NCBI RefSeq assembly: GCF_016767175.1
Contig: NZ_CP068564.1
Coordinates: 1,550,001-1,614,000, forward strand
Length of the DNA: 64,000 nucleotides
DNA from: Keratinibaculum paraultunense
GTDB lineage: Bacteria; Bacillota; Clostridia; Tissierellales; Tepidimicrobiaceae
Reading direction: 5' to 3'
Shown here: positions 163 to 21,497 of the stretch, in pieces
Layout: every line of letters begins with the position of its first letter
Position numbering within the stretch: position 1 is the stretch's first letter
Notes under the pieces: generated by a model
The model's input: the letters and a program-made list of their open reading frames with translations, nothing else
The model's database searches: none
Told to the model about the DNA's origin: nothing
Program-made: the position numbers and the translations under genes

Positions 163-1287
163 TTAATTATTTGTCATTTTAAGTGGAAAGTCCATAATGA
201 TTTTCAAAGTTGAACTAGTCAATTCCGAACTAATTCTACCCTTATGTTTTTCCATAATCTCTTTTGATATAGCCAATCCTAAACCAGAACCCTCAATAGA
301 TTTATTTCTAGACTTATCTATCCTGTAAAAAGGTTGAAACAGCTTAGAAGCTTGTTCATCAGTCATACCATAGACATCATTTTCAATAATAACAGATTGA
401 TATTCCGAATTTGAAATGGTGTAAATTCTTATTTTCCCACCTGGTTTTGTATATTGTATAGCATTTTTTATAACATTGTAAAATGCTCTAGCAATCAAAT
501 CTTGATCTACAAGAAATATAATAGACTCTTCTATATCAATCTCAAATTTAAGGTTTTTTTGGGTGATTTTAGGATAAAAAGTTTCTCTCATCTGTATTAG
601 CAAATTTAATAAATCTATTTTTTTTAAGTTCAAATGAGAAATTTGAAGTTGAAATTTGGCCAAATCAAAAAATTGATTGATGAGATTCTCTAGTTCTTTG
701 GATTTTTCCTGAATAATCTTCAAATATTTCTTTCTATTTTCTTCTGATATATTTGGTTCATCTAATAGCAAGGATACATATCCAAATATTGAGGTTAATG
801 GCGTCTTCAAATCATGTGCTAAAAATGCCATAGATTGATTATGTTGTATAACTTGGTCTTGGTTTTGTTTTATAAGCTCGTTTCTTTCTTCGATTAATGC
901 TTTAATTTCTTTATCTATGCCTAGATATTCCAGCTTATTTTCTGGCACAAGGTTATTTTTTAACATTTGAATTCTTTCATGGATTTCTAACGCTACCGCA
1001 TTTTTAACTTCTAAAACTTTTCTCATAATGAAAACTTCTGAAATAATAAATGCTATAATATATACTGCATAGATTAGTAGTATTGAAGTCTGCCTAATAC
1101 TACTCCAATCCAATTTCCCCTCAATATAAGTTTTACCATAAACCTTTACTTCTCTTATGTCAAACATAAAATTGTTTGTAAAAATGTGTAGGAAGTTACT
1201 TCCAATAATCATATATATAAGAATCAATATGAGAGTTAATATAATTAAACCTTTAAGAAAACTTTTAGTCGTTTTTTTCAATAACAT
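163..1287 (-). CDS. Sensor histidine kinase, VanS-like (copy 1)
   Basis: Membrane histidine kinase of about 374 residues. Two transmembrane segments near the N-terminus (roughly residues 10-30 and 67-88) flank a short outside loop. The phosphoacceptor box is LAHDLKTPLTS, with His at about residue 158. The ATPase domain shows an N box (YNVIKNA) and a G2 box (GSGLGLAISKE). The H-box wording resembles VanS and lantibiotic-sensing kinases. The start at 1287 is preferred over an upstream one because GGGGGGAGGG lies just before this ATG. The gene overlaps the regulator gene by 23 bp, suggesting translational coupling. The signal is unknown; adjacency to an ABC transporter suggests a cell-wall-active peptide. 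Copy 2 is at 31581-32705 and differs at two residues seen by eye (A/T, V/I). Confidence 0.9.
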   Translation of the reverse strand: MLLKKTTKSFLKGLIILTLILILIYMIIGSNFLHIFTNNFMFDIREVKVYGKTYIEGKLDWSSIRQTSILLIYAVYIIAFIISEVFIMRKVLEVKNAVALEIHERIQMLKNNLVPENKLEYLGIDKEIKALIEERNELIKQNQDQVIQHNQSMAFLAHDLKTPLTSIFGYVSLLLDEPNISEENRKKYLKIIQEKSKELENLINQFFDLAKFQLQISHLNLKKIDLLNLLIQMRETFYPKITQKNLKFEIDIEESIIFLVDQDLIARAFYNVIKNAIQYTKPGGKIRIYTISNSEYQSVIIENDVYGMTDEQASKLFQPFYRIDKSRNKSIEGSGLGLAISKEIMEKHKGRISSELTSSTLKIIMDFPLKMTNN

Positions 1288-5459: not shown

Positions 5460-5642
5460 TTACTCACAAGCATTTGCTCTAGAGTTTTCGCAGCCTCGAG
5501 TCAATCCAGCTACTAAAGAAATTACAGTTAATAATGTAATTACAGAAACACCTTGTGCCTCAACAGGTGTATTTTGACTTGCTTCCATTTCATCTAAAGA
5601 ATAATCTTCAAATGTAGGTCCTACAAGATTATAATTCTTCAT
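5460..5642 (-). CDS. Class II lanthipeptide precursor 1
   Basis: A 60-residue peptide with the form of a LanM substrate. An acidic leader (about residues 1-31, containing FEDYSLDEMEASQ) is followed by a hydrophobic Ser/Thr-rich stretch and a C-terminal part with two cysteines, Cys51 and Cys59. Likely rings are Thr48-Cys51 (TRGC) and Ser54-Cys59 (SRANAC). Four upstream Ser/Thr residues around VSVITLLTVIS have no Cys partner. The leader lacks a double-glycine site, in keeping with an exporter that has no C39 peptidase. The start has a GGGGGG binding site. The leader motif F-E-x-x-x-x-(D/E)-E-M-x-x-S-Q is shared with the neighbouring precursor. Ring positions are inferred. Confidence 0.82.
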   Translation of the reverse strand: MKNYNLVGPTFEDYSLDEMEASQNTPVEAQGVSVITLLTVISLVAGLTRGCENSRANACE

Positions 5643-5753: not shown

Positions 5754-5933
5754 TTATGGACAATTAAAGTTTCTACTCCACCATCTGGATATATAATATG
5801 ATGCTTCATATGCTGTAAGTATAGATAATACTGTTACTGCTGTGGCAACACTCTCTGGCTCATATTCAACCTGCTGAGAAGATGCCATCTCTTCAAATTC
5901 TAATTCTTCAAAAGTAACACCAATATTATTCAT
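5754..5933 (-). CDS. Class II lanthipeptide precursor 2 (short ORF)
   Basis: A 59-residue peptide read by hand between precursor 1 and the reductase gene. It starts MNNIGVTFEELEFEEM and has GGGGGG six bases before its ATG. The leader shares the EEMxSSQ pattern with precursor 1. The core is rich in unpaired Ser/Thr (SVATAVTVLSILT), then aromatic (SYYISRWW), and ends with Ser53-Arg-Asn-Phe-Asn-Cys58-Pro. Only one Cys is present, so only one thioether ring is possible. The SRxxxC spacing equals that of the last ring of precursor 1. The remaining Ser/Thr are candidates for dehydration and reduction. It is probably the partner peptide of a two-component product. Confidence 0.8.
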   Translation of the reverse strand: MNNIGVTFEELEFEEMASSQQVEYEPESVATAVTVLSILTAYEASYYISRWWSRNFNCP

Positions 5934-5979: not shown

Positions 5980-6681
5980 TTAGACTTTATTAAGCGTATA
6001 TGTTAAGAAGGAATCGAATGTATAAAAATCTAGTAACCCATTTTTAAGCCAATAATTATATTCATATCCTTGTCTATGTTTAGATAATTGGTTATACATT
6101 GAAGAATATAATCCATTTTGAAAAACATTACCTCTTAATGATTTTGGATTTTTATATGCTTTATCTACTTTTTCTGCTAATTGCATGATATTACGATTTA
6201 TATCTTCTTCAAGCATTAAATCGTTTATTACTAAGGAATCTATACAAATACATCCAAAGGCAGATACAACTTTTTTTAAATAGCTAGTTACATATTCTTC
6301 GCCTGAAGTTGATGTACTTGTACATACTACAGCAAGTTTTCCTGTAAGAGGAAATAGATGTGACCAATGTGCTAATCTATCTATAAAGACTTTGGTCGAA
6401 CCAGATATTTGATGTATATAAACTGGAGAACCTATTATTAATAAGTCGCACTTTTTTATTTTTTCCTTAATCATTTTCATGTCATCCTTATTATCTTGAG
6501 GACAAATACCAGTAGCAAAACAAGAATTACATCCCATACATGGAAGAATATTTAAGGATTCTGCTGTAAAAACATCAACATTGTTACCCCTACTGGGAAG
6601 GGAATCAATTAGTTGTTTAGTATATTTAAGTGTGGTTGAGTTCTTTCCTTGCATACTGCCAATAAAACAAAAAATATTCAT
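5980..6681 (-). CDS. Flavodoxin-fold NAD(P)H:FMN reductase, candidate dehydroamino-acid reductase (LanJ-like)
   Basis: A 233-residue flavodoxin-like oxidoreductase. The N-terminal IFCFIGSMQGKNSTT is the FMN-phosphate loop, and CMGCNSC...C (Cys48, 51, 54, 60) is the cysteine cluster common in iron-sulfur flavoprotein/FMN reductases. IGSPVYIHQISGSTKVFIDR is the second flavin-binding block. It sits between lanM and the two precursor genes in the same direction. In some lanthipeptide clusters dedicated reductases turn dehydroalanine and dehydrobutyrine into D-Ala and D-aminobutyrate, and one group of these is flavin-dependent. Context and the Ser/Thr-rich, Cys-poor cores suggest that role here. 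Family membership in the known LanJ groups was not tested. A general quinone or nitro-reductase is the alternative. Confidence 0.8.
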   Translation of the reverse strand: MNIFCFIGSMQGKNSTTLKYTKQLIDSLPSRGNNVDVFTAESLNILPCMGCNSCFATGICPQDNKDDMKMIKEKIKKCDLLIIGSPVYIHQISGSTKVFIDRLAHWSHLFPLTGKLAVVCTSTSTSGEEYVTSYLKKVVSAFGCICIDSLVINDLMLEEDINRNIMQLAEKVDKAYKNPKSLRGNVFQNGLYSSMYNQLSKHRQGYEYNYWLKNGLLDFYTFDSFLTYTLNKV

Positions 6682-6782: not shown

Positions 6783-9700
6783 TTAATCTAAAGTTAATAC
6801 ACTAGGTATTTCTTCTGGAAATATTGATCTTAGTAGAGAGTAACCAACTCCTGATAATCCCATAAATAACCCTACATCTCTGAAATCATCTAATTCTTGT
6901 AATCTTGCCTGTCCATGTTCTAAAAAATAATTAGCAATTTGACTAGATGTTGAGTTTATATAGTCTGTAAACCTATCTTGAGGACTTAATAAACTACATG
7001 TTATTAAAAAATCTAGATTTCCTGATAAACCATGACATAAAGACATATTCTGGTTAGAATCATTTATAGCCTGTCTTAAAGCAAGTTCTTTAAAATGTAC
7101 CAATCTATCATCATTAAGATATTTCAAACATGCTACAGCTCCAATTCCAAGTCCAGTTGTTCCATGACACCAAGAAGTATGGTTTTTGCTATGGATATAA
7201 TCATTTTTGTAATAATTTAAATCTTTAATTTGATTTAATGTATGATCTAGTATTTTCTCAATATCTTTCTCGCAATTTATTCCATATTTATTTTGAGCAA
7301 TTAACATAGCATATAATATCCCAATTCCACCATGTCCCATTCCTATACTTGATTCTTTTTCTAAAAACATGTCTAAATTTGATTTAATTGTGGTAATTAT
7401 TTTGGCTATTTCTTCATAGAGTAAGGATTTACTAGTTAAAATATTTTGATTATTATCTAATAGTTTAACTAAACTAGCTCCTCCTCCTAACCAATCAATA
7501 CCAGTATATGTGTTATTTTTTGAATATTTTGAATTTTTGGAATACCTAGAATATAGTTTTTTAAAATAAGTAGGATCATCTATATTACATTTCAAAAGTA
7601 CATATGCCTCACCTAAACTACCTGAAAATACACCATGGTGATGATAAATTCCATAATCTTTTGTGGTATTTTTAACTTTTTCTGTAAATTCTATAATATT
7701 TCTATCGGTTGTATATTTAGATAAATAGTTTAAAAAAAGTAAAATTCCAGCTCTACCTGAATATAAACCATTTTCAATGGAGGTAATTTTATAAAAACCA
7801 TCAGTTGTATCTATATATGGCCATGAAACATACTTTCCACTTTTGCTATAGTAACATAAATCCATGATTTTATATGCAATTTTGTTACATGTATCCAAAA
7901 TCTTTTCCTTATTTAAATAATCCTCTTGGTATGATATTTCTGGCATCTTCTTATCTCTTTCATCAATCAACTCATAGTAATTTCCTAATAATATTCTCAA
8001 CTTTAATTTTTCCTTATTTACTTCCTTCATATTTAATTTTTTAAGTCTACTTATGGTTATTTCTAAACCACTTTTAGGAAAATAATCTTCTATATACTCA
8101 TAGTTGCTTGTAATAATATGATTTTTAGAAGTATTGCAAAAGAAAATTGGGATATCCATATTGAGCATATCATTAACTTCATAAGGAACTATACGTCTAT
8201 CTTTATAAGGATTAGCCCAGTTATTTTCAAATAGCTTTTCTAAATGTTTGCTATCTGATAGGTAGTGCGGATGATCTGCAAATGTCAATAAATCTCCATA
8301 AACTGCTGTCGATTTCGTTAATTGCCTTACTAGCAAGTTTTGAAATGTATTTTCTATTAACTCAATAATTTCTTTTCTATTCCGATAAACAAAATTTAGT
8401 GCATCATCAAATCCTTGAATAATATCATTTTTATAGTTGTGATATGTTATAGTTTTGTTTTTAAATTTTGGCAAATTTTCATTCGCTTTAATAACAGCGT
8501 CATATTTATACTCAAAACGCATTTCATCAGTATAGACATTTATTGGCACTAATACTTTAGTAGGGTAGATTTCTTCCTGTCCCCCTCCTAGTCCACTGAC
8601 ATCAACACCTTTACCTTCTACATTATTATCAAAACCTTTCGTTGGTAAGATACCTATCGCAAATAATCTTAGTATATGATCGTTAATTACCTCTAAGTTT
8701 GCATTATCCTCTAAATCGTATTCATATTGCGATAATAATGTTTCACAGTCAATAATATATGGATATTCTCCCGATGCTATGATGTTCTCGCTATGCATGT
8801 CTGTTGCGCCAACTATTCCCAATAATACGATTAATTCACCAATTCTATAATAATAGTTGTTTAATTGATTTTTATTAGTACATTCTTTATGAGTAATTAC
8901 TTCTTCTACTGTAAATTTTTCTGCATAATATACATTATTAGTACGAAGATCCATCAATCCACTATTTTCGTTAAAGTAATTTATTAATGAACTGAATGCT
9001 TTTTGAATATATAAATTTCTTGGTTTATAGATTAATTCCTTAGAATTTGAAAATATTAATTTTGAAACACTTCTCCCCCTCTGGTGAGTATCTCCTTTAG
9101 ATGTTTCAAAACCTATTATCTTATTATCAGATAGACCAAAATAATTACTTATCTTATGATAGTCCCCATCAATAAACTTAAACATTTCCATCGTTGAGTT
9201 GATAAAATCTTGACTTCGATTAATTAATAATCGGAGCAACACTGGATACTTTAGATAGAATGATTTTATTTTATCAATTGATGAGTATTTTCTCTTGATA
9301 AAGTCTAAATACCTTTCATGCCCATCATTTCCTTTAAGTTCATTATGTTGTTTAAATTGGTGAAGCTCTATAATCAGACATTTCCAAGTCATACGACTAA
9401 GTATGCTTTTACAATCAGCAATATATTCTTCTATTGTTTTAGCTGATACGCTAATATTTTTTAATTCTTTAACTTGAGTAAAAATCTCCTGTTTGATGTA
9501 TTCTGAAAAAGGGATAACTAATTGATCTTTATCAATATTATTTAGATTGACATTACATGTATCAAATATCATATTGAAAAGCTGAAACCAATTTTGTTGT
9601 TCTAGATAATTATATAAAATACTATTTTCATACTCAGTAAAATTTTTAAGTGCAAATGCAAAGTTTTCTTTTTTAATATTCCGAATTTTTAAACTTTCAT

Positions 9701-9851
9701 TAAAAGATTCTTCATTAACTAAACTTCTTATATTTAGCCAATCATAAATTAATTGGATATCATCAAAAATATATTCACTTTCTACATTGAAGGCATTTAT
9801 TCTTTCTTCGATTGTTAATGCTTTAGTTAGTGAAGGGTATGTTTGTTGCAT
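6783..9851 (-). CDS. lanM: Class II lanthipeptide synthetase LanM
   Basis: Bifunctional enzyme of 1022 residues, normal for LanM. It phosphorylates and eliminates Ser/Thr in the core peptide, then adds Cys to form (methyl)lanthionine rings. The N-terminal dehydratase half has the KPRNLYIQKAF lysine motif at about 275, the kinase-like loop GATDMHSENII at about 350 and the following IIDCETLL. The C-terminal LanC-like cyclase has GHGGIGILYA at about 838 and the zinc ligands in SWCHGTTG (about 895) and SLCHGLSG (about 938). All catalytic motifs looked for are present. The start is backed by a GGGGGG ribosome binding site. It lies downstream of the LspA-like gene and upstream of the reductase and both precursors. 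One synthetase for two differing precursors is known from two-component systems. Confidence 0.96.
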   Translation of the reverse strand: MQQTYPSLTKALTIEERINAFNVESEYIFDDIQLIYDWLNIRSLVNEESFNESLKIRNIKKENFAFALKNFTEYENSILYNYLEQQNWFQLFNMIFDTCNVNLNNIDKDQLVIPFSEYIKQEIFTQVKELKNISVSAKTIEEYIADCKSILSRMTWKCLIIELHQFKQHNELKGNDGHERYLDFIKRKYSSIDKIKSFYLKYPVLLRLLINRSQDFINSTMEMFKFIDGDYHKISNYFGLSDNKIIGFETSKGDTHQRGRSVSKLIFSNSKELIYKPRNLYIQKAFSSLINYFNENSGLMDLRTNNVYYAEKFTVEEVITHKECTNKNQLNNYYYRIGELIVLLGIVGATDMHSENIIASGEYPYIIDCETLLSQYEYDLEDNANLEVINDHILRLFAIGILPTKGFDNNVEGKGVDVSGLGGGQEEIYPTKVLVPINVYTDEMRFEYKYDAVIKANENLPKFKNKTITYHNYKNDIIQGFDDALNFVYRNRKEIIELIENTFQNLLVRQLTKSTAVYGDLLTFADHPHYLSDSKHLEKLFENNWANPYKDRRIVPYEVNDMLNMDIPIFFCNTSKNHIITSNYEYIEDYFPKSGLEITISRLKKLNMKEVNKEKLKLRILLGNYYELIDERDKKMPEISYQEDYLNKEKILDTCNKIAYKIMDLCYYSKSGKYVSWPYIDTTDGFYKITSIENGLYSGRAGILLFLNYLSKYTTDRNIIEFTEKVKNTTKDYGIYHHHGVFSGSLGEAYVLLKCNIDDPTYFKKLYSRYSKNSKYSKNNTYTGIDWLGGGASLVKLLDNNQNILTSKSLLYEEIAKIITTIKSNLDMFLEKESSIGMGHGGIGILYAMLIAQNKYGINCEKDIEKILDHTLNQIKDLNYYKNDYIHSKNHTSWCHGTTGLGIGAVACLKYLNDDRLVHFKELALRQAINDSNQNMSLCHGLSGNLDFLITCSLLSPQDRFTDYINSTSSQIANYFLEHGQARLQELDDFRDVGLFMGLSGVGYSLLRSIFPEEIPSVLTLD

Positions 9852-9893: not shown

Positions 9894-10553
9894 TTAATTA
9901 TTGTATTTTTTAATTACAAATAAGTCATTTTTAATGCCGTACATTAATAATGTTCCAATTCCTAATTGTGCATATATATCTTTTATATCAATAGCTTGTA
10001 AACCCTTAAACACTATAAAATCCAATGTATAACCCCAGAGAGCACTATCCATTATGGAACATATAACCATGGCATATGTTAAGATTTTTGTTAAATTTAA
10101 ATAACTATCTTTTTGATATTTTTCTTCACAATATCGGTAGAAAATTAATAGAACTATTAATACCATGAGCCTAGCAATAGTTGTAATCCAACCAGGTAAT
10201 GTTAATCCAAGAATATTGAACAACGCACTTATCTGTTCATTTTTAACTATCTTTAGCATAAATAAGTTTCCAGGAAGAGTAATTACTTTGTTACCTAGAA
10301 ATCTATAGATGATTAATTTTGCAATTTGATCTATTCCAACAAGTACTCCAATTGTTACTGCCATAAACTTATTAGAGAAATCATGCTTTTTTAAATAAGA
10401 TGTTATAAAATATCCTAAAAAAATATATATTAATATAGGTATAAACAGTGTAATATAATGTCTAAGTTCGTAAGCTTGACCAATTACAATTTTTCTTATC
10501 ATGTTTAAAATAGGCATGATGGCAAATGCAATTAAGTAAATATATTTGTTCAA
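9894..10553 (-). CDS. LspA-like (signal peptidase II family) membrane protein
   Basis: A 219-residue polytopic membrane protein with about six helices. It carries signal peptidase II signatures in order: GIDQIAKLII (residues 73-82), a KNEQISALFN block (104-113) standing for the usual N-x-G-A-A-F, MDSALWGYTLDF (168-179) and IDIKDIY (189-194). Asp169 and Asp192 align by eye with the two catalytic aspartates. It is longer than ordinary LspA (about 160 residues) by an N-terminal membrane portion, and the middle motifs are relaxed. It lies 42 bp before lanM. Possible roles are self-protection, if the product targets LspA or lipoprotein processing, or processing of a cluster peptide. The signatures point to the family but not to activity. 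Confidence 0.7.
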   Translation of the reverse strand: MNKYIYLIAFAIMPILNMIRKIVIGQAYELRHYITLFIPILIYIFLGYFITSYLKKHDFSNKFMAVTIGVLVGIDQIAKLIIYRFLGNKVITLPGNLFMLKIVKNEQISALFNILGLTLPGWITTIARLMVLIVLLIFYRYCEEKYQKDSYLNLTKILTYAMVICSIMDSALWGYTLDFIVFKGLQAIDIKDIYAQLGIGTLLMYGIKNDLFVIKKYNN

Positions 10554-10824
10554 ATCATTCTCCTCCTCTTTAAATCAAGTAGTATTTTCCAATACCCCTA
10601 ATTAATTTTATATTATTTTAATGGATCATTTGCAACGAAATACGGATTGACCCCTTAATTTTGGACAAAAACTCACTAATACTTCCAATATCATAATATT
10701 TCATTTTGCCCTTGGTTTATTGTACATTAATATTTATCTTCATCAAGGGTAAAGGCTACGCCCCTCAAAGCAGGCCCTTGATTTCAGCTAAATATTAATG
10801 TGTTAGGCACTTGAAGGCAAAGTA

Positions 10825-11652
10825 TTAAAGCTTTATTTTCAAAGGTTTTGCTGTTCCTTCCAATGTTTTATGGTAAAATTCTACTGGTGAAATATATCCT
10901 AAAGAACTATGGATTCTAACTTTATTGTAGAATTTAATATATTCAGATACTGCTTCATAAGCTTCTGTATAGCTTTTAAATTCGTACCTTGACAAACATT
11001 CATCTTCTAACAATCTATGAAAAGCTTCTATATGGGCATTTTTATTTGGAGTCTTAAATGGTATCCTTTCATGCTCTAATTTTAATTCTTTACAAGTATC
11101 TTGAAATTTATTGCTGATAAATTGTGGGCCATTATCTGACCTTATAATCAAGTTAATTTTCTTATTATAAAGTTCCCGCTTCATTAATCCCCTTTTAAGG
11201 GTTACGATTATGTCTTCAGTTTTACAAGATAATCCCATATGATATTCTACTATATTTCTATCATATACATCTAAAAAAGAAGCTATATAGAAGAATCTAT
11301 CTTCACCATGAATATAACCATATTTAACATCTACTTCCCAAAGGGAATTTGATGTTGTTATTTCTCTATTTATAGCTATTTTTCTAGGAAATTTAGGTTT
11401 AATTTTCCTTTGAGGCCTTAAGACCTCAAGCTCTTTACATAATCTATATACTTTTTTCTTATTTATAATTAAATTAAATTTCCTTCTTAACAATACAGTT
11501 ATTTTGCAGTAACCGTAGTACAATCCTTCTGTTTCAATGATTTTTAATATATATTCCTTTATTTGTTCATCACAAATATGATTGCCATCTTTATCAAAAG
11601 AGTAACCAGGAATTGGTCTACCGCCTTTATTTATTTTTGTATCTTCATTCAT
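10825..11652 (-). CDS. IS3-family transposase OrfB
   Basis: DDE transposase catalytic part (rve integrase core) of 275 residues from the first ATG. Visible are WEVDVKYGYI, RSDNGPQF and the HIEAFHRLLEDE region carrying the third acidic residue, then an RIHSSLGYISPVEF tail. The same frame stays open upstream without an ATG to the A8 run at 11795-11802, where it overlaps orfA. It is therefore almost certainly made as an OrfAB fusion by -1 frameshifting, as in other IS3 elements. Confidence 0.92.
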   Translation of the reverse strand: MNEDTKINKGGRPIPGYSFDKDGNHICDEQIKEYILKIIETEGLYYGYCKITVLLRRKFNLIINKKKVYRLCKELEVLRPQRKIKPKFPRKIAINREITTSNSLWEVDVKYGYIHGEDRFFYIASFLDVYDRNIVEYHMGLSCKTEDIIVTLKRGLMKRELYNKKINLIIRSDNGPQFISNKFQDTCKELKLEHERIPFKTPNKNAHIEAFHRLLEDECLSRYEFKSYTEAYEAVSEYIKFYNKVRIHSSLGYISPVEFYHKTLEGTAKPLKIKL

Positions 11653-11780
11653 ATCTTCAGTTTTAGTTCTTTTTTTAATATTGTAATAATAGGTAGACCT
11701 ACTTAATCCAAGAATTTTAAGGACAGTAACTGCAGTATATCCTAAATCAATCCATTTCTTCGCAATATTAACTTTATCTT

Positions 11781-12089
11781 CTATTGTGGGTTCGTTTTTT
11801 TTAAAAGGTCTTTAAGAATGGCAATTTCTAAATCTTTTTCGCCTAATAATTTTTTTAATTGCTCATTTTCTTCTTCTAGGGATTTAGCATTAATATTATT
11901 GGAATAATTATAATTTGGAATTAGTCCATTTTCTTTCTTTGACTCCCTAACCCAGCGGGTAACAGTTCCAGGGACTAAATCGTGTCTTCTGGCAACTAAT
12001 GTAGCATTACCAGTTTCCTCTACTTCCTTAATAATTTGACGTTTAAATTCTTCTGGATATCTTTTACCTTTACCTCTCAATTTAGACAA
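11781..12089 (-). CDS. IS3-family transposase OrfA (helix-turn-helix)
   Basis: A 102-residue DNA-binding subunit. The helix-turn-helix is in ATLVARRHDLVPGTVTRWVR, followed by a leucine-zipper-like segment (LEEENEQLKKLLGEKDLEI). Its last codons cross an eight-A run (11795-11802 on the plus strand as T8), the expected slippery site for making OrfAB. Confidence 0.9.
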   Translation of the reverse strand: MSKLRGKGKRYPEEFKRQIIKEVEETGNATLVARRHDLVPGTVTRWVRESKKENGLIPNYNYSNNINAKSLEEENEQLKKLLGEKDLEIAILKDLLKKTNPQ

Positions 12090-12177
12090 CCTCCCATTAA
12101 TTTTTATTTTACTAAATTAGTGTGCGATTGTCCAAATAGGTTAGGGGGCTTAATAGAGGTGTTATAAAGTATTAGTC

Positions 12178-13848
12178 CTATGAACTTGTTTTCAATAAAG
12201 AATTTGTCCTGTTATAATCAATATTTATTATTTCATCACATATTGTGAATAATCTTTCATCATGAGTTACAATAATAGTGATAGTGTCTAATTTATTTAA
12301 TTCCAATATGTTAATTAATTCATTGACACTATCTGAGTCTAGGGCTGATGAAGGTTCATCTAATATCAATAAACTTGGTCTTTTCAATAGAGCATGTAAT
12401 ATGGCAATTCTTTGATTTTCACCTCCCGATAATTCTGATATTTTTTTAAACCAAAACTTATCTAAATCAAAGTGATTATTATAAAATAATCCCATTAATC
12501 CCAATTCTTTAATTTGATTTTTAATTAACTTAATATTTTCTTTAGTGTTATCACTATAATTAAATAATGATAATACTGTATCCGACATAAGATTTGGAAA
12601 TTGTTGTACTACTGCAATGTTGCGTTTTCTAAGTTCATATAAATCAATTTCTTTTATATTAATATTGTTATATTTTACATTTCCACTTAAATTTTCACTT
12701 AGGAGCCCTATAATAATATCTATTAATGTTGATTTTCCAGATCCATTATGACCTCTAATTATATAAATTTTGTCTTTTTCAAACTTATAATTAAAGTCTT
12801 TTATAATATAAGGTTCCTTTTTATTCTTATAGGTATAGGAATAGTTAATATCATTTAATGATACTGAATTAATATTTTCTATAATTTTTGTTCCATTATG
12901 TTCTTTTTTCACACTATACAATTCATTTATTCTATTGAATGATACCTTAGTTTCTTGATAAGATTTTCCAAAGTTTAGATAATATTTTATGCATTCTATA
13001 ATCATTGAATAGTATGATAAGATAATTGTAAATTGACCTATAGTCATATGCCCATCTAATATAGACTTAGATCCCAAGACTAATATAACTGATTGTAATA
13101 ATAGCGTAATTATTCCATCTAAAGAATAAAAAAGATGGGCTACTCTATTTGCATTTATCGAATTTGTAAGTAATTTACTAAATGTAGAGTTTAATAGCTT
13201 AGAACTTTGATTAAAGCTACCATTTGTTTTAATATCTTTTATATATATATACTGTTCTGATAAACTTGTAAAAAATTTATTTTGACTCTCTTTTAATATT
13301 AAATTCCATTTATATAGAGGACTTTTTAAATAATTATAAAGAATAAGAAAGAAAGGTATACTAACTAAACTACAAATAAATATTTTAAAATTGATAGTAA
13401 ATAACATATAAAAAGAAAACAATATCGTGCCAAGGTTTGTAAAAAATCTCAGATAGTTATCTAAAAAAAAAGTAATTAGGCTATTTGAATCATTATAAAT
13501 CCTTTGGCTAAGGTAAACAGGCTTATAATCTGAAAAAAACAATATAAATACTCTCTTTAAATGCTCAGTTACATCATAAATTATTTGATAAGTAAACTTC
13601 AGTTTTAGCTTTGCCATTTGCATGTTTAAAACATAAGATAGTACCATGTTTAGTAATGTAAGAAGTATAATAGTATAAATAATTCGTAGAACAATATTCA
13701 TAGATTTAAGTTTAGTCAGATTATCTATCAATTCAGCATTTAGATAAGGAAATAATAGTCCATAAACCCATACAAAAATAGATATTATAGTAATTAAAAT
13801 AAACTTATATTTTTCCTTTCTGATAGTATTTACAATCAGTTTTCTCAT
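12178..13848 (-). CDS. ABC exporter of the lanthipeptide cluster (LanT-like, no peptidase domain)
   Basis: A 556-residue half-transporter. About six membrane helices occupy residues 15-300. The ATPase domain has Walker A GHNGSGKST at about 365, signature LSGGENQRIAI at about 471 and Walker B LLILDEPSSALD at about 490. It begins directly with the membrane domain, so it lacks the C39 leader peptidase found in many class II LanT proteins. The precursor leaders accordingly lack double-glycine sites. The leader protease must be elsewhere. It follows the propeptide gene by 68 bp and is separated from the biosynthetic genes by the IS3 element. Export of the lanthipeptide is the likeliest job; self-resistance is the alternative. 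Confidence 0.85.
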   Translation of the reverse strand: MRKLIVNTIRKEKYKFILITIISIFVWVYGLLFPYLNAELIDNLTKLKSMNIVLRIIYTIILLTLLNMVLSYVLNMQMAKLKLKFTYQIIYDVTEHLKRVFILFFSDYKPVYLSQRIYNDSNSLITFFLDNYLRFFTNLGTILFSFYMLFTINFKIFICSLVSIPFFLILYNYLKSPLYKWNLILKESQNKFFTSLSEQYIYIKDIKTNGSFNQSSKLLNSTFSKLLTNSINANRVAHLFYSLDGIITLLLQSVILVLGSKSILDGHMTIGQFTIILSYYSMIIECIKYYLNFGKSYQETKVSFNRINELYSVKKEHNGTKIIENINSVSLNDINYSYTYKNKKEPYIIKDFNYKFEKDKIYIIRGHNGSGKSTLIDIIIGLLSENLSGNVKYNNINIKEIDLYELRKRNIAVVQQFPNLMSDTVLSLFNYSDNTKENIKLIKNQIKELGLMGLFYNNHFDLDKFWFKKISELSGGENQRIAILHALLKRPSLLILDEPSSALDSDSVNELINILELNKLDTITIIVTHDERLFTICDEIINIDYNRTNSLLKTSS

Positions 13849-13916: not shown

Positions 13917-14069
13917 TTAATTAATGCTTATATTTTTATATATATCTTCGTAGCTATGTGCATCTATCAAATCATCTTTTCCTGCTACTATTAAATCTGA
14001 AGTTCTAATTGATTGGTTAAAAACTAATAAGGATAATATTAAAATTAAAGCAGATAATCTTTTTTTCAT
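13917..14069 (-). CDS. Small secreted propeptide, candidate quorum-sensing pheromone precursor
   Basis: A 50-residue ORF read by hand. It starts MKKRLSALILILSLLVFNQS, a typical signal peptide, and continues with a polar acidic tail ending HSYEDIYKNISIN. The ATG has GGGAGAGAAGG just upstream. Size and design match PapR/Phr/SHP-type propeptides, which are exported, trimmed to a few C-terminal or internal residues and re-imported to bind an RRNPP regulator. It is transcribed divergently from just such a regulator gene (14190-15119) and is the first gene ahead of the exporter. No Cys is present, so it is not a lanthipeptide substrate. The active peptide cannot be read from sequence alone. Confidence 0.7.
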   Translation of the reverse strand: MKKRLSALILILSLLVFNQSIRTSDLIVAGKDDLIDAHSYEDIYKNISIN

Positions 14070-14133
14070 AGGCCTTCTCTCCCTTATTTAAATTTTTTCG
14101 AATTATCTAACTATTTATATGATATAATATGAT

Positions 14134-14139
14134 TGTCAA
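14134..14139 (-). promoter_or_regulatory. Candidate -35 box of the lanthipeptide operon
   Basis: On the minus strand TTGACA lies about 65 bp before the propeptide ATG. Downstream -10 candidates (TAAATA at spacing 16, TATAAA at 14) are imperfect, as expected of an activator-dependent promoter. The inverted repeat at 14142-14170 abuts its upstream side. Confidence 0.45.
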
Positions 14140-14141
14140 AT

Positions 14142-14170
14142 TTTCAACCCTATTCAAATCGGGGTTGAAA
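14142..14170. promoter_or_regulatory. Inverted repeat, probable regulator-binding site
   Basis: TTTCAACCC and GGGTTGAAA form perfect 9-bp arms separated by 11 bp, in the divergent promoter region. The repeat lies directly upstream of the minus-strand TTGACA, the position of an activator site, and between the TATAAT at 14123-14128 and the regulator start on the plus strand. No second copy was noticed in the window. Confidence 0.6.
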
Positions 14171-14189
14171 TTAGAAAGGATGTGCTGAT

Positions 14190-15119
14190 GTGTATAATCT
14201 TGACTTATTTGGAAAAGAAGTTCGCAAGATTAGAAGACAGCGAGGATATACACAAAAGTATGTCTGTAGCGCTTCTAATATTAGTATTGATACCATTAGA
14301 AAGATTGAGAATGGAAAAGTTACTCCTAATCAAATTACTCTAGAATTATTATCTCCTGTTCTAAAAGTAGACCTCAATGAATTACTTTTAAAGTATAGGT
14401 TTAAAAACTATGGTGATTTTATAAAAATAAAAAGCAAAATAGAAACACATCTAGAAAATGGTGAGTTTGAACAATTAGAATTTGATTTAAAAGTTGCAAA
14501 AAAATTACTACATCAAGAAAAATATAATGCTTATGTTAAAAACTTACTAAGACAATATTGTCTATTAATTAAATCTATCATAGTAAAAACAGAAATCAAA
14601 AATTATAGTAAAGCTTTAGACTTACTTATTAGAGCTTTAAAAATAACAACTCCCAATTTTGATTTATCAAATTATGATGACTTTGTATATAGTAATTTAG
14701 AGATTAGAATCTTAATGAATATAGCTATCCTTTTCAATAAACTTAGAACAGTAAATGAAGGAATTGAAATATTAAAATTTTGTTTGTCTATTATAGATTC
14801 TGATGATGTTAAACTTAAAATTAAGATATTATATAATTTAGCATATAATTATTATAGACTTGATCTTCATAAGGAATGTTTACATTATTGTAATGTCGGT
14901 ATAAGTACTTGTGTAAAAAACAATGTTCTTACTTGCTTATCCTTATTATATGCCCGTAAATCTATTTCTGAGTACTATCTTAACCATGACACATATAAAG
15001 ACTCTATTTCTAAAACTATCATACTATTTGATATATACAAACAAGAAAAATTAAAACACATATTCTTACAATCTTGTAGAGACATACATAATATTGATAT
15101 TAGTGAATGGATGATGTAA
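14190..15119 (+). CDS. HTH-TPR regulator of RRNPP (PlcR/Rgg) type
   Basis: A 309-residue cytoplasmic regulator. Residues 6-60 are an XRE-type helix-turn-helix (VRKIRRQRGYTQKYVC, then TIRKIENGKVTP). The rest is helical with TPR-like pairs, for example YNLAYNYYRLDLHKECLHYC and the region around residues 140-270. The architecture is that of peptide-pheromone receptors. The start is GTG at 14190 with AGAAAGGA nine bases upstream; a nearby ATG is out of frame. It diverges from the 50-residue propeptide and the exporter, with the inverted repeat between them. It probably activates the lanthipeptide operon when the pheromone binds. Repression is also possible. Confidence 0.82.
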   Translation: MYNLDLFGKEVRKIRRQRGYTQKYVCSASNISIDTIRKIENGKVTPNQITLELLSPVLKVDLNELLLKYRFKNYGDFIKIKSKIETHLENGEFEQLEFDLKVAKKLLHQEKYNAYVKNLLRQYCLLIKSIIVKTEIKNYSKALDLLIRALKITTPNFDLSNYDDFVYSNLEIRILMNIAILFNKLRTVNEGIEILKFCLSIIDSDDVKLKIKILYNLAYNYYRLDLHKECLHYCNVGISTCVKNNVLTCLSLLYARKSISEYYLNHDTYKDSISKTIILFDIYKQEKLKHIFLQSCRDIHNIDISEWMM

Positions 15120-16690: not shown

Positions 16691-17236
16691 TTAGTGTCCA
16701 TACTTATATACTAACATCAAAATTCTCCCTGGATTTGCTATTAAAAACTCAATTATTTTATATTCTGTTGATGTTAATTTTAATTGTTTATTAAAATATG
16801 TGACGTTTTTGTTGTTGCAATCAACGACAACCTCATCTTTTGTAATTATTTTTTCAGTAGTAACAGGAATTCTTTTCATTTGTTTAATCATTGAAGATAT
16901 TCTAGCTCTTAATTCTTCATTATTAAAAGGTTTTGTTATATAATCTACCGCCCCTCCTCGTAACCCCTTTATTTTATCTATATCAGAGGAAAGGGCTGTC
17001 AACATAAATACCGGTATGTTGAAATTTGATTTTATTTTGTATAGAATTTCTAAACCACTTTCACCAGGTAACATTATATCTAAAACTATTAATGCAATAT
17101 CTTTATTAGAATTTAATATTTCTGTTACTTTAGAGCCTTCATTTAAAACAATTGCTTCATAACCCTCAAATTCAACATTCATTTTGACTATATCACAAAT
17201 ATCTTGATCATCATCAATTATCAAAATTTTGTACAT
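16691..17236 (-). pseudogene. OmpR-family response regulator truncated by IS3
   Basis: The receiver domain is intact (acidic pair LIIDDD, phosphosite Asp53 in IVLDIMLPG, conserved Lys in ITKPF). The winged-helix domain breaks off after IEFLIANPGRIL, and the last dozen codons come from the IS end. About 45 C-terminal residues, including the recognition helix and wing, are missing, so DNA binding should be lost. No partner kinase remains nearby. It is distinct from the duplicated regulator and may be a relic of an earlier regulatory system of the island. Confidence 0.85.
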
Positions 17237-18142: not shown

Positions 18143-19397
18143 TTAATTCAAATAATAATCCAAACAGCTTAGAAGTCCTCGTCTTGCGAGGATTTCTTTG
18201 CTTATGTGATGTAGTCCTGTGGTTTTTGCAACTGCTTGATAGTGGTCTCCAAATCCTATTGATTGTTTGGCCATCCACATTGGGGCTCCTAGTTTTCGAA
18301 GTCCCCACAGGCGTTTTTCACTTGTCTTCCACTGCTTCCATATGACTATTCTCATTCTTGTTCTAAGTCGTTCATCTATCTTTCTTAGGACTGTTTTCAT
18401 ATTTCCTAGTCTAAAATAGTTTATCCACCCTCTAATTACTTGGTTCAGTCTGTTGATTCGATATGTCATTGATACTGACCAACTTCTCTTTGTCAACTGT
18501 TTCAACTTTCTTTGGAATCTTTTAACTGAATCTTGGTGCGGTCTTGCTTTCCATTCTCCTTTAGCTTTCCAAAACCCATATCCTAAATATTTTAGTTTTG
18601 TTGGTTTTGTAACTTTGGATTTTGTTGCATTTACTTTTAGTCCTAGTTTCTTTTCTATCCACTTTGTTACTGATGCCATTACTCTATTGGCTGCTGCACT
18701 ACTTCCTACTACGATTATACAGTCGTCTGCATACCTTACAAAGTTTAATCCCCTTGCTTCTAGTTCTTTGTCTAATTCGTTTAGTATTATGTTACTTAGA
18801 AGCGGTGATAGGTTTCCTCCTTGTGGGGTTCCCTTGGTTGTTTCCTCATATTCTCCTTTTACCATTACTCCTGCATTAAGATATTTCCTAATTAGGGATT
18901 CTGTGCCTGGGTCATTTATGAGGTTATGAACCAGGGTCATGAGTTTGTCTTGTGGTACGTTATCGAAGAATTTCTCTAGGTCGATGTCTACAATGTAGGT
19001 ATATCCGTCATTAAAATACTCGAGCAATTTCACTATCGCTTGTTGTGCTCTGCGGTTTGGTCTAAAACCGTAGCTGTTATCATTAAAAGTATGGTTCTGC
19101 TATCGGTGTTAGTACTTGTGCTATTGCCTGTTCTATGACTCTGTCTACTATTGTTGGTATTCCAAGATTGCGTACTCCTCCATTTGGTTTTGGTATTTCT
19201 ACCCTTCTGACTGGTTTTGGTTTGTACTTTCTTCTTCGAATTTTGTCTCTAATTTCTACCCAGTTGTCTTTGAGGTATTGGTCTATTTCTTCGGTTGATA
19301 TTCCATCTATTCCTCCTGCTCCTTTGTTTGCTTTTACTTTGTTTAGTGCTGCAAACATATTATCTCTACTGAGTATTTGTTCTAGCAATTCTGACAT
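18143..19397 (-). pseudogene. ltrA: Group II intron reverse transcriptase/maturase, frameshifted
   Basis: The N-terminal 104 codons (19397-19083) stop at EPYF, and the remainder (from 19033) is in another frame. Removing one T from the TTTT near 19083 restores a continuous protein of about 418 residues reading EPYFNDNSYGFRPNRRAQQA across the join. RT motifs include VDIDLEKFFDNV, GTPQGGNLSPLLSN and the catalytic FVRYADD. A maturase domain follows (YRINRLNQVIRGWINYF). No HNH endonuclease domain is present, typical of terminator-targeting introns. The intron is probably immobile unless a functional copy acts in trans. Confidence 0.88.
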
Positions 19398-20287: not shown

Positions 20288-21274
20288 TTAATATAATTCA
20301 CATCCTCTTTTTATTATTGCACTATTATTATTGTATAAATTATCACTGGTTTTTGTTTTTTTATAATAAAAATCTGATACTCCTGTGCTTGAAATTAGTA
20401 CTTCTCCTACATAATCTTTTAATGATCTATATGGATAAATAGACCCTACCTTTACCTCTTTGCAATTATAGCATGTCGTTTTATACTTTCTTACGGTCTC
20501 TGCTTTTAGAGACACTAGTGTTCCTCCTGCACCCGCGACCAATGCGACTACTTGCTTTACTCCTACTGGAGGTATCCCTAACATTACTGATATTGCTGAT
20601 AAAGCTAAGCCTGCAGCTACATATTTATTTATAGTTCTATATGCTCCAAAAGTTCTTGTATAATATAGATACCCTGTTCTACCTTTATATGTCCCTTTTG
20701 TTAAATATTTGTTCAAAACAGTATTGCCATATCTATTTTTTGCTTTGCGTATAGCTTTTGAACTCTCACCAGAATTTAATAATGATATCTCTGAGTTTAG
20801 GTTTTCATCTTTACGTGATCCTGAATCTAGAACTCCTTCATAACTTGTTTCAATGTTTATTTCTCTTGTTTCGATAAAATCGTTATTATTAAATAAATCT
20901 AAGATATTATTTATATCTGTATCTATAGATTTTGATTCTTCATTATTAAGTAACTTGTTAGTATGCAATATAGATTCCTCTAGATTCAATGTTGATTTTG
21001 GTTTGTATTCAAGCATCTTATCTTCTATATTTTGTTTTCTACTATATGCATTTACAAGGTTCCCTTCAGAATTAACAGTTATACATACAATATCTTCATT
21101 GTTTTCCAAGTACATATAATAAATATTACCTATTTGAATAATTTCAAAACTATCTAGGTCATTGTTTTCATCCATTATATTCATTTGATCAATTTCAATA
21201 TTCTGTGCAAAAGTTGGTACTGGCACTGAAATTAACATTACAAAAGCTAACAGCAAACATATAATTTTTTTCAT
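20288..21274 (-). CDS. Secreted protein of unknown function with hydrophobic Gly-rich segment
   Basis: A 328-residue protein beginning MKKIICLLLAFVMLISV with a signal peptide ending near TFAQ. The start at 21274 has AAAGGGG upstream and replaces a longer frame without such a site. An acidic, low-complexity middle is followed by a basic region and a hydrophobic Ala/Gly-rich stretch near residues 215-255 (ALSAISVMLGIPPVG, LVAGAGGTLVSL) that could insert in membranes. A CYNC pair and a final Cys occur near the C-terminus. The family is not recognised. The signal peptide, membrane-active-looking segment and following small membrane protein suggest a bacteriocin/immunity-like pair, which is inference only. 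Confidence 0.7.
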   Translation of the reverse strand: MKKIICLLLAFVMLISVPVPTFAQNIEIDQMNIMDENNDLDSFEIIQIGNIYYMYLENNEDIVCITVNSEGNLVNAYSRKQNIEDKMLEYKPKSTLNLEESILHTNKLLNNEESKSIDTDINNILDLFNNNDFIETREINIETSYEGVLDSGSRKDENLNSEISLLNSGESSKAIRKAKNRYGNTVLNKYLTKGTYKGRTGYLYYTRTFGAYRTINKYVAAGLALSAISVMLGIPPVGVKQVVALVAGAGGTLVSLKAETVRKYKTTCYNCKEVKVGSIYPYRSLKDYVGEVLISSTGVSDFYYKKTKTSDNLYNNNSAIIKRGCELY

Positions 21275-21497
21275 ATACTTACCCCTTTCACCAATAAATA
21301 TAGAAACTAAACATTTATTATTACAATCCATCATATATACTATTCCCATGTTGATAGATTACTCAATCGCCGTTACTATACCTCTGAGAGTTCATATAAG
21401 TCATATGCATGACCTCCTTCATATATTTAAATCAAGAATACCTTTCTAATGCTAGCCAATGTCTTACTTCTAACTTTAAGTTATCTGTACCATCCAA

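Follow-up and report, generated by a model that had tools for sequence, protein, structure and literature searches.

A probable PlcR/TprA-type RRNPP regulator and secreted propeptide with a shared promoter region beside a lanthipeptide cluster in Keratinibaculum paraultunense

The locus described here is, on good evidence, an RRNPP quorum-sensing pair of the PlcR/TprA type, in which a secreted peptide and a divergent HTH-TPR regulator share a promoter region. It lies in a 64-kb stretch of the Keratinibaculum paraultunense genome (contig NZ_CP068564.1, positions 1,550,001 to 1,614,000), hereafter the window. A previous sequence-only reading had noted a 50-residue signal-peptide ORF, a 309-residue HTH-TPR gene and an inverted repeat between them, and all three were confirmed in place. 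Its proposal of a new RRNPP pair with an operator holds as far as the pair and its operator are concerned, given that the regulator family aligns with PlcR along its full length and that propeptide and regulator co-occur in many genomes, but the pair is not one of a kind, since the same genome has a second one and RRNPP pairs of this sort are already catalogued. The minus-strand operon consists, in order, of the propeptide gene, an ABC transporter gene, an IS3 element, an LspA-like gene, lanM, an FMN reductase gene and two candidate precursor genes. The features are as follows.

14190..15119, plus strand: regulator, RRNPP-type (PlcR/TprA-like) HTH-TPR, 309 aa, GTG start (HTH_3; family profile against PlcR)
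13917..14069, minus strand: signal propeptide of 50 aa, predicted to be secreted, encoded by the first minus-strand operon gene (signal-peptide-like N-terminus, Shine-Dalgarno sequence, family profile)
13950..13976, minus strand: likely core of the mature signal, DDLIDAHSY, residues 32-40 (alignment with DDxIEWxSY of relatives)
14142..14170, no strand: putative operator palindrome TTTCAACCCTATTCAAATCGGGGTTGAAA (homologous boxes before the propeptide units of relatives)
14119..14147, minus strand: predicted propeptide-ABC promoter, -35 TTGAAA at 14142-14147, 17 bp, -10 TATCAT at 14119-14124
14120..14128, plus strand: predicted extended -10 (TGATATAAT) of the regulator promoter (sequence; overlapping -10s in relatives)
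12178..13848, minus strand: ABC transporter, permease and ATPase, second operon gene (Pfam, NCBIfam)
10660..12136, no strand: IS3-family element, terminal inverted repeats and two transposase ORFs
9894..10553, minus strand: signal peptidase II-like protein (Peptidase_A8; Pfam E 7e-11)
6783..9851, minus strand: class II lanthipeptide synthetase LanM (TIGR03897 E 2e-189)
5980..6681, minus strand: NADPH-dependent FMN reductase/flavodoxin-like protein (Pfam)
5754..5933, minus strand: candidate lanthipeptide precursor 1 (leader-like sequence, position after lanM)
5460..5642, minus strand: candidate lanthipeptide precursor 2 (lichenicidin A2 family, weak match of E 2.6e-4, below the cut-off)

The regulator, the propeptide and their relatives

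The regulator (14190-15119) matched HTH_3 with an E-value of 2e-11, and its matches to TPR models in Pfam were weak. A search of its order returned relatives of 30-50% identity from many genera, 24 of which formed the family profile; an N-terminal Cro/C1-type HTH was present in the window protein and in 24/24 relatives. The best solved structure for this profile was PlcR (2qfc), with profile positions 6-296 aligned to PlcR 4-284 (E 1.3e-12), and the match to ComR was confined to the HTH and its vicinity. Pfam RNPP_C matched 14 of the 24 family members and gave no match to the window's own regulator. Homology of the TPR domain to RRNPP receptors is thus seen at the level of the family, in the PlcR profile alignment and the RNPP_C matches. 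The window regulator sits on a long branch of the regulator tree, and its single-sequence AlphaFold model had a pLDDT of 47, too low to serve as support from structure. No relative was found in viral contigs and phages, those on plasmids were remote (at most 35% identity), and these results give no indication that the system belongs to a phage or plasmid. Relatives among the scanned genome contigs were HTH-level matches only.

The propeptide ORF (13917-14069, minus strand) has a good Shine-Dalgarno sequence and encodes MKKRLSALILILSLLVFNQSIRTSDLIVAGKDDLIDAHSYEDIYKNISIN. Its N-terminus is signal-peptide-like, secretion is inferred, and it matched the family profile with E 3.9e-17, its own sequence being included in that profile. 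Short ORFs with a basic start and a hydrophobic stretch adjoin many regulator relatives, and the propeptides of relatives share an internal core of about DDxIEWxSY, represented in the window by DDLIDAHSY at residues 32-40. Trp is present in the core of most relatives and missing from the window core and from DDVIEIHSG of L048. When 249 genomes were searched in six frames with the propeptide profile, 17 hits passed E<1e-4, several of them outside the training set of the profile. Fourteen lay within about 0.6 kb of a regulator, two were in the same locus as one at 3-5 kb, and one (L109, on a short contig) had none. This last propeptide (168-290, minus strand, on a 5.6-kb contig lacking a regulator) carries three tandem EDDDEIIEWQS-like cores; multi-copy propeptides are known in PlcR-type systems (PMC9765709). 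Because L109 repeats the core three times, the signal is probably the internal core and not the C-terminus. The C-terminal position is the usual one for most known signals. The sequence-only reading had proposed peptides from the propeptide C-terminus for testing, and these would probably miss the signal because the conserved core is internal, with ten residues following it in the window propeptide. Residues 28-44 give DDLIDAHSY and AGKDDLIDAHSYED, and the C-terminal peptide is YKNISIN. Regulator and propeptide divergence were correlated (Mantel r 0.75, 0/5000 permutations), partly through shared ancestry; this is as expected of a co-inherited pair and would not, taken alone, prove contact.

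The layout is divergent in the window, L048, L023, L054 and L056 and tail-to-tail in L005, L018, L019 and L050. The convergent systems form one group in the regulator tree (support 93/92), and one rearrangement therefore suffices to explain the layout. Among them is the second pair of the window's own genome, composed of regulator L005 (9654-10574) and a minus-strand propeptide (G000:C1:1700582-1700749) with the core DDTIEWYSY and a perfect box match upstream. Its gene order is common to a genome of the same genus (G012, L018), and its regulator, 44% identical to that of the window, is the sole other full-length family member in the genome. Several relatives neighbour radical-SAM/SPASM maturases and a SagB-type enzyme, and others a subtilase, identified by sequence. 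LanM was found only in the window among 20 genomes of the family, and the window ABC transporter is about 37% identical to the ABC exporters adjoining L050 and L057. The regulator relatives at L066, L107, L108 and L110 are broken or ended by a contig edge, some with an intact-looking propeptide. Close regulator relatives at L020, L021 and L022 stand beside a gene for a UvrA-resembling ABC-ATPase with no propeptide found nearby, and might listen to the signals of other cells.

The putative operator and the overlapping predicted promoters

The perfect repeat TTTCAACCC-N11-GGGTTGAAA spans 29 bp at 14142-14170. With up to 3 mismatches allowed, the 64-kb window has no other match (0.03 expected), and the 2.3-Mb genome contains this single copy. 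Dinucleotide shuffles of the intergenic region produced a perfect arm of 9 bp with a loop of 3-16 nt in 37 of 2000 cases, and in 2 of 2000 when G+C content was weighted. The bare arm is moderately rare in this AT-rich gap, and rare once its G+C content is considered. The stronger proof of the repeat is its conservation at the same place in relatives. Over about 20 positions, the core box of L019 departs from that of the window at a single one.

The -35 of the propeptide-ABC promoter is probably TTGAAA, within the repeat arm and 17 bp from TATCAT. The repeat had been described as touching a minus-strand TTGACA; the two are indeed close, but TTGACA lacks a good -10 at 16-18 bp and was rejected as the -35. 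A script found TTGA-17-TAnnnT together with a palindrome arm in nine upstream regions, the spacing being 17 bp in all of them; the arm match was weak in L048 and L059, where it was reached by 27/300 and 8/300 shuffles, respectively. By reading, a similar promoter-box unit was recognised in L051 and L108 (with TTGT). The box also precedes the propeptide units of the convergent systems L019, L005 and L018, where the -35 hexamers, again by reading, are more variable (a weak TTTATT in L005 and L018). At L050 the box stands before a radical-SAM operon of which the propeptide is the last gene. Whether the layout is divergent or convergent, the predicted operator-promoter unit stands ahead of whichever transcription unit contains the propeptide gene.

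The promoter positions are predictions. On them, the -10s of the divergent promoters overlap by 5 bp in eight regions. The window is one of them; its regulator promoter is less strong than the others, and the -10 could instead sit 5 bp further on. The palindrome arms of L023 and L056 are the predicted -35 in both directions. Bidirectional promoters with this architecture are known in E. coli (PMC12825309). The operator follows closely after the expected start of the regulator, with its centre at about -44 from the predicted operon start.

A box pattern agreeing with the sites of other genomes was run on the window's genome. The best match was upstream of the propeptide of the second system, followed by that of the window. 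The regulon is probably local, because box matches at promoters were limited to these two propeptide promoters. A third site with one mismatch was discarded, being non-palindromic and about 150 bp past the 3' end of an amidohydrolase-like gene, as were two further matches inside DnaJ-like genes.

Mode of control and the lanthipeptide genes

The IS3 element (10660-12136) lies about 41 nt past the ABC gene and separates the propeptide-ABC genes from the LspA-like gene, lanM and the precursors. Control of the lanthipeptide genes may have been weakened or lost through this insertion. That the rest of the family lacks LanM, together with the flanking IS3, IS21 and intron sequences, suggests that the region was acquired. 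No C39 peptidase was matched in the ABC transporter, and no C39 protease among the cluster genes scanned. Candidate precursor 1 had no family match in NCBIfam. The LspA-like signal peptidase II protein (9894-10553) lies within the lanthipeptide cluster. Elsewhere in the window we observed a two-component system at 163-1963, on the far side of the IS21 genes, that resembles VanS/VanR-type models most but scores under their cut-offs; a VanR/PhoB-like response regulator, probably truncated (16691-17236, 181 aa against a 226-aa profile); a reverse transcriptase of the group II intron type, identified by eye and split between two ORFs (18143-19397); and a secreted-looking 353-aa protein with a very weak halocin C8 precursor-like match (20288-21349, E 0.004).

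We consider it reasonably probable that the whole forms a peptide-sensing RRNPP switch, in which the propeptide operon is repressed by the regulator as long as no peptide is bound, and derepressed by the peptide. The propeptide would be exported and then trimmed to a short peptide around DDLIDAHSY, and this peptide would be re-imported to bind the regulator, encoded divergently, at its TPR domain. The regulator would bind the 29-bp palindrome, which holds the propeptide-ABC -35 and sits just after the regulator's own start. When free of peptide it would most likely repress both the propeptide operon and itself, as in TprA2/PhrA2. By lifting the repression the peptide would create a positive feedback and would originally have made expression of the lanthipeptide genes downstream depend on cell density. 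The overlap of the operator with the operon -35 and its place after the regulator start are suggestive of repression of both. The sequence-only reading had the pair activating the lanthipeptide operon, a claim that lacks support in that form, since the nearest arrangement, TprA2/PhrA2, is a repressor relieved by its peptide, the operator overlaps the operon -35 and IS3 splits the operon.

Of the two possible directions of control, we place repression somewhat ahead. The same pair and operator could work with a peptide-bound regulator that activates the propeptide operon, as in PlcR/PapR and many Rgg/SHP systems, a reading that we regard as less probable. PlcR is the closest solved relative, an operator centred near -44 is at the usual site for an activator touching the -35 and could suit one here, and the poor -35s of some relatives (TTTATT in L005 and L018) would fit activation at least as well. 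However, most -35/-10 pairs of the family are fairly good and have the exact 17-bp spacing expected of promoters that work unaided, the arms of L023 and L056 serve as the -35 of both divergent promoters, and TprA2, the nearest precedent in layout, is a repressor (PMC5436883). It is quite conceivable that the pair is real and now uncoupled from the lanthipeptide genes, IS3 blocking read-through so that the switch drives only the propeptide and the ABC transporter. The element, with both transposase ORFs, lies between the ABC and LspA-like genes and there is no second operator within the 64-kb window, although outward transcription from IS3 or read-through of it is possible. Such uncoupling is compatible with the repression switch, and both can hold together.

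Two further readings would take away the signal or the operator. As the first gene, ahead of an ABC exporter, the 50-aa ORF might encode a secreted peptide akin to a bacteriocin, or a small accessory of export. This is very improbable: relatives of the peptide track the regulator family and not one type of neighbour (lanthipeptide genes, radical-SAM maturases, subtilase), the core is acidic and without Cys, and L109 has three core copies, like known multi-pheromone propeptides (PMC9765709). The palindrome, a G+C-containing inverted repeat within an AT-rich stretch, might be a terminator or RNA element, but there is no T-run after it, the arms themselves are conserved between genera beyond their pairing (window versus L019) and it keeps a fixed position with respect to the -10, leaving this reading scarcely credible.

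Novelty and comparison with known systems

A limited search of the open-access literature found no description of the DDxIEWxSY core or its operator, and the shared signal motif and operator of the window family appear undescribed. Tentatively, we propose that this clostridial order has an RRNPP pheromone family not yet described. Its signal would be an internal DDxIEWxS, sometimes in tandem, and its operator would contain the -35 for a promoter that is bidirectional and has overlapping -10s, at which bound regulator and RNA polymerase would choose between receptor and signal transcription. The module would be reused with different modified-peptide clusters, with two copies in this genome having different signals (DDLIDAHSY and DDTIEWYSY). 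If so, these distinct signals may prevent cross-talk between the two circuits. The present analysis predicts a particular operator and signal core for a group of anaerobes whose peptide signalling is little studied, and supplying the right 9-mer offers a handle for turning on silent lanthipeptide and radical-SAM peptide clusters. With the operator-promoter geometry fixed across genera and the box staying with the propeptide, the mode of control is directly testable.

The closest known layout is that of TprA2/PhrA2 of Streptococcus pneumoniae PMEN1, which controls a lanthipeptide operon (lcpAMT) through a regulator that represses and a peptide that relieves (PMC5436883); TprA also represses itself (PMC4873490). 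The likeness rests on gene layout, in which an RRNPP regulator and a small secreted peptide are encoded on opposite strands and the peptide gene leads on to genes for ABC transporters and a class II lanthipeptide cluster (PMC5436883), an arrangement also found in the window. In contrast to the window, TprA2/PhrA2 is streptococcal, has three ABC transporters (one in the window) and a C39-peptidase transporter (none seen in the window), and no IS is described in its operon. PlcR/PapR of the Bacillus cereus group resembles the window in the full-length match of the regulator family and in a secreted propeptide beside the regulator, but differs in that the window's genome has only two boxes, one per pair. 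The PapR signal is C-terminal, whereas the window core is internal, and the PlcR palindrome differs from that of the window.

Streptococcal Rgg/SHP pairs with radical-SAM RiPP clusters likewise control a neighbouring modified-peptide cluster (reviewed in PMC13361665), and relatives of the window family also adjoin radical-SAM maturases. However, SHPs are shorter and hydrophobic, whereas the window core is acidic and its precursor has 50 aa. The best full-length match of the regulator profile is PlcR and Rgg was absent from its 60 best PDB sequence matches; with a peptide that is not short and hydrophobic, the window pair does not belong to Rgg/SHP. Qsr/Qsp of Clostridium acetobutylicum (PMC7376267) are also clostridial RRNPP pairs, but their peptide gene lies downstream of the regulator, six to eight TPRs are predicted and the QspB signal is AEPTWGW (PMC7376267). 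RRNPP pairs beside biosynthetic clusters have been catalogued, with one cluster each in Tissierellaceae and Peptoniphilaceae (PMC10075063). Such pairs are a known kind, of which the window pair is another member.
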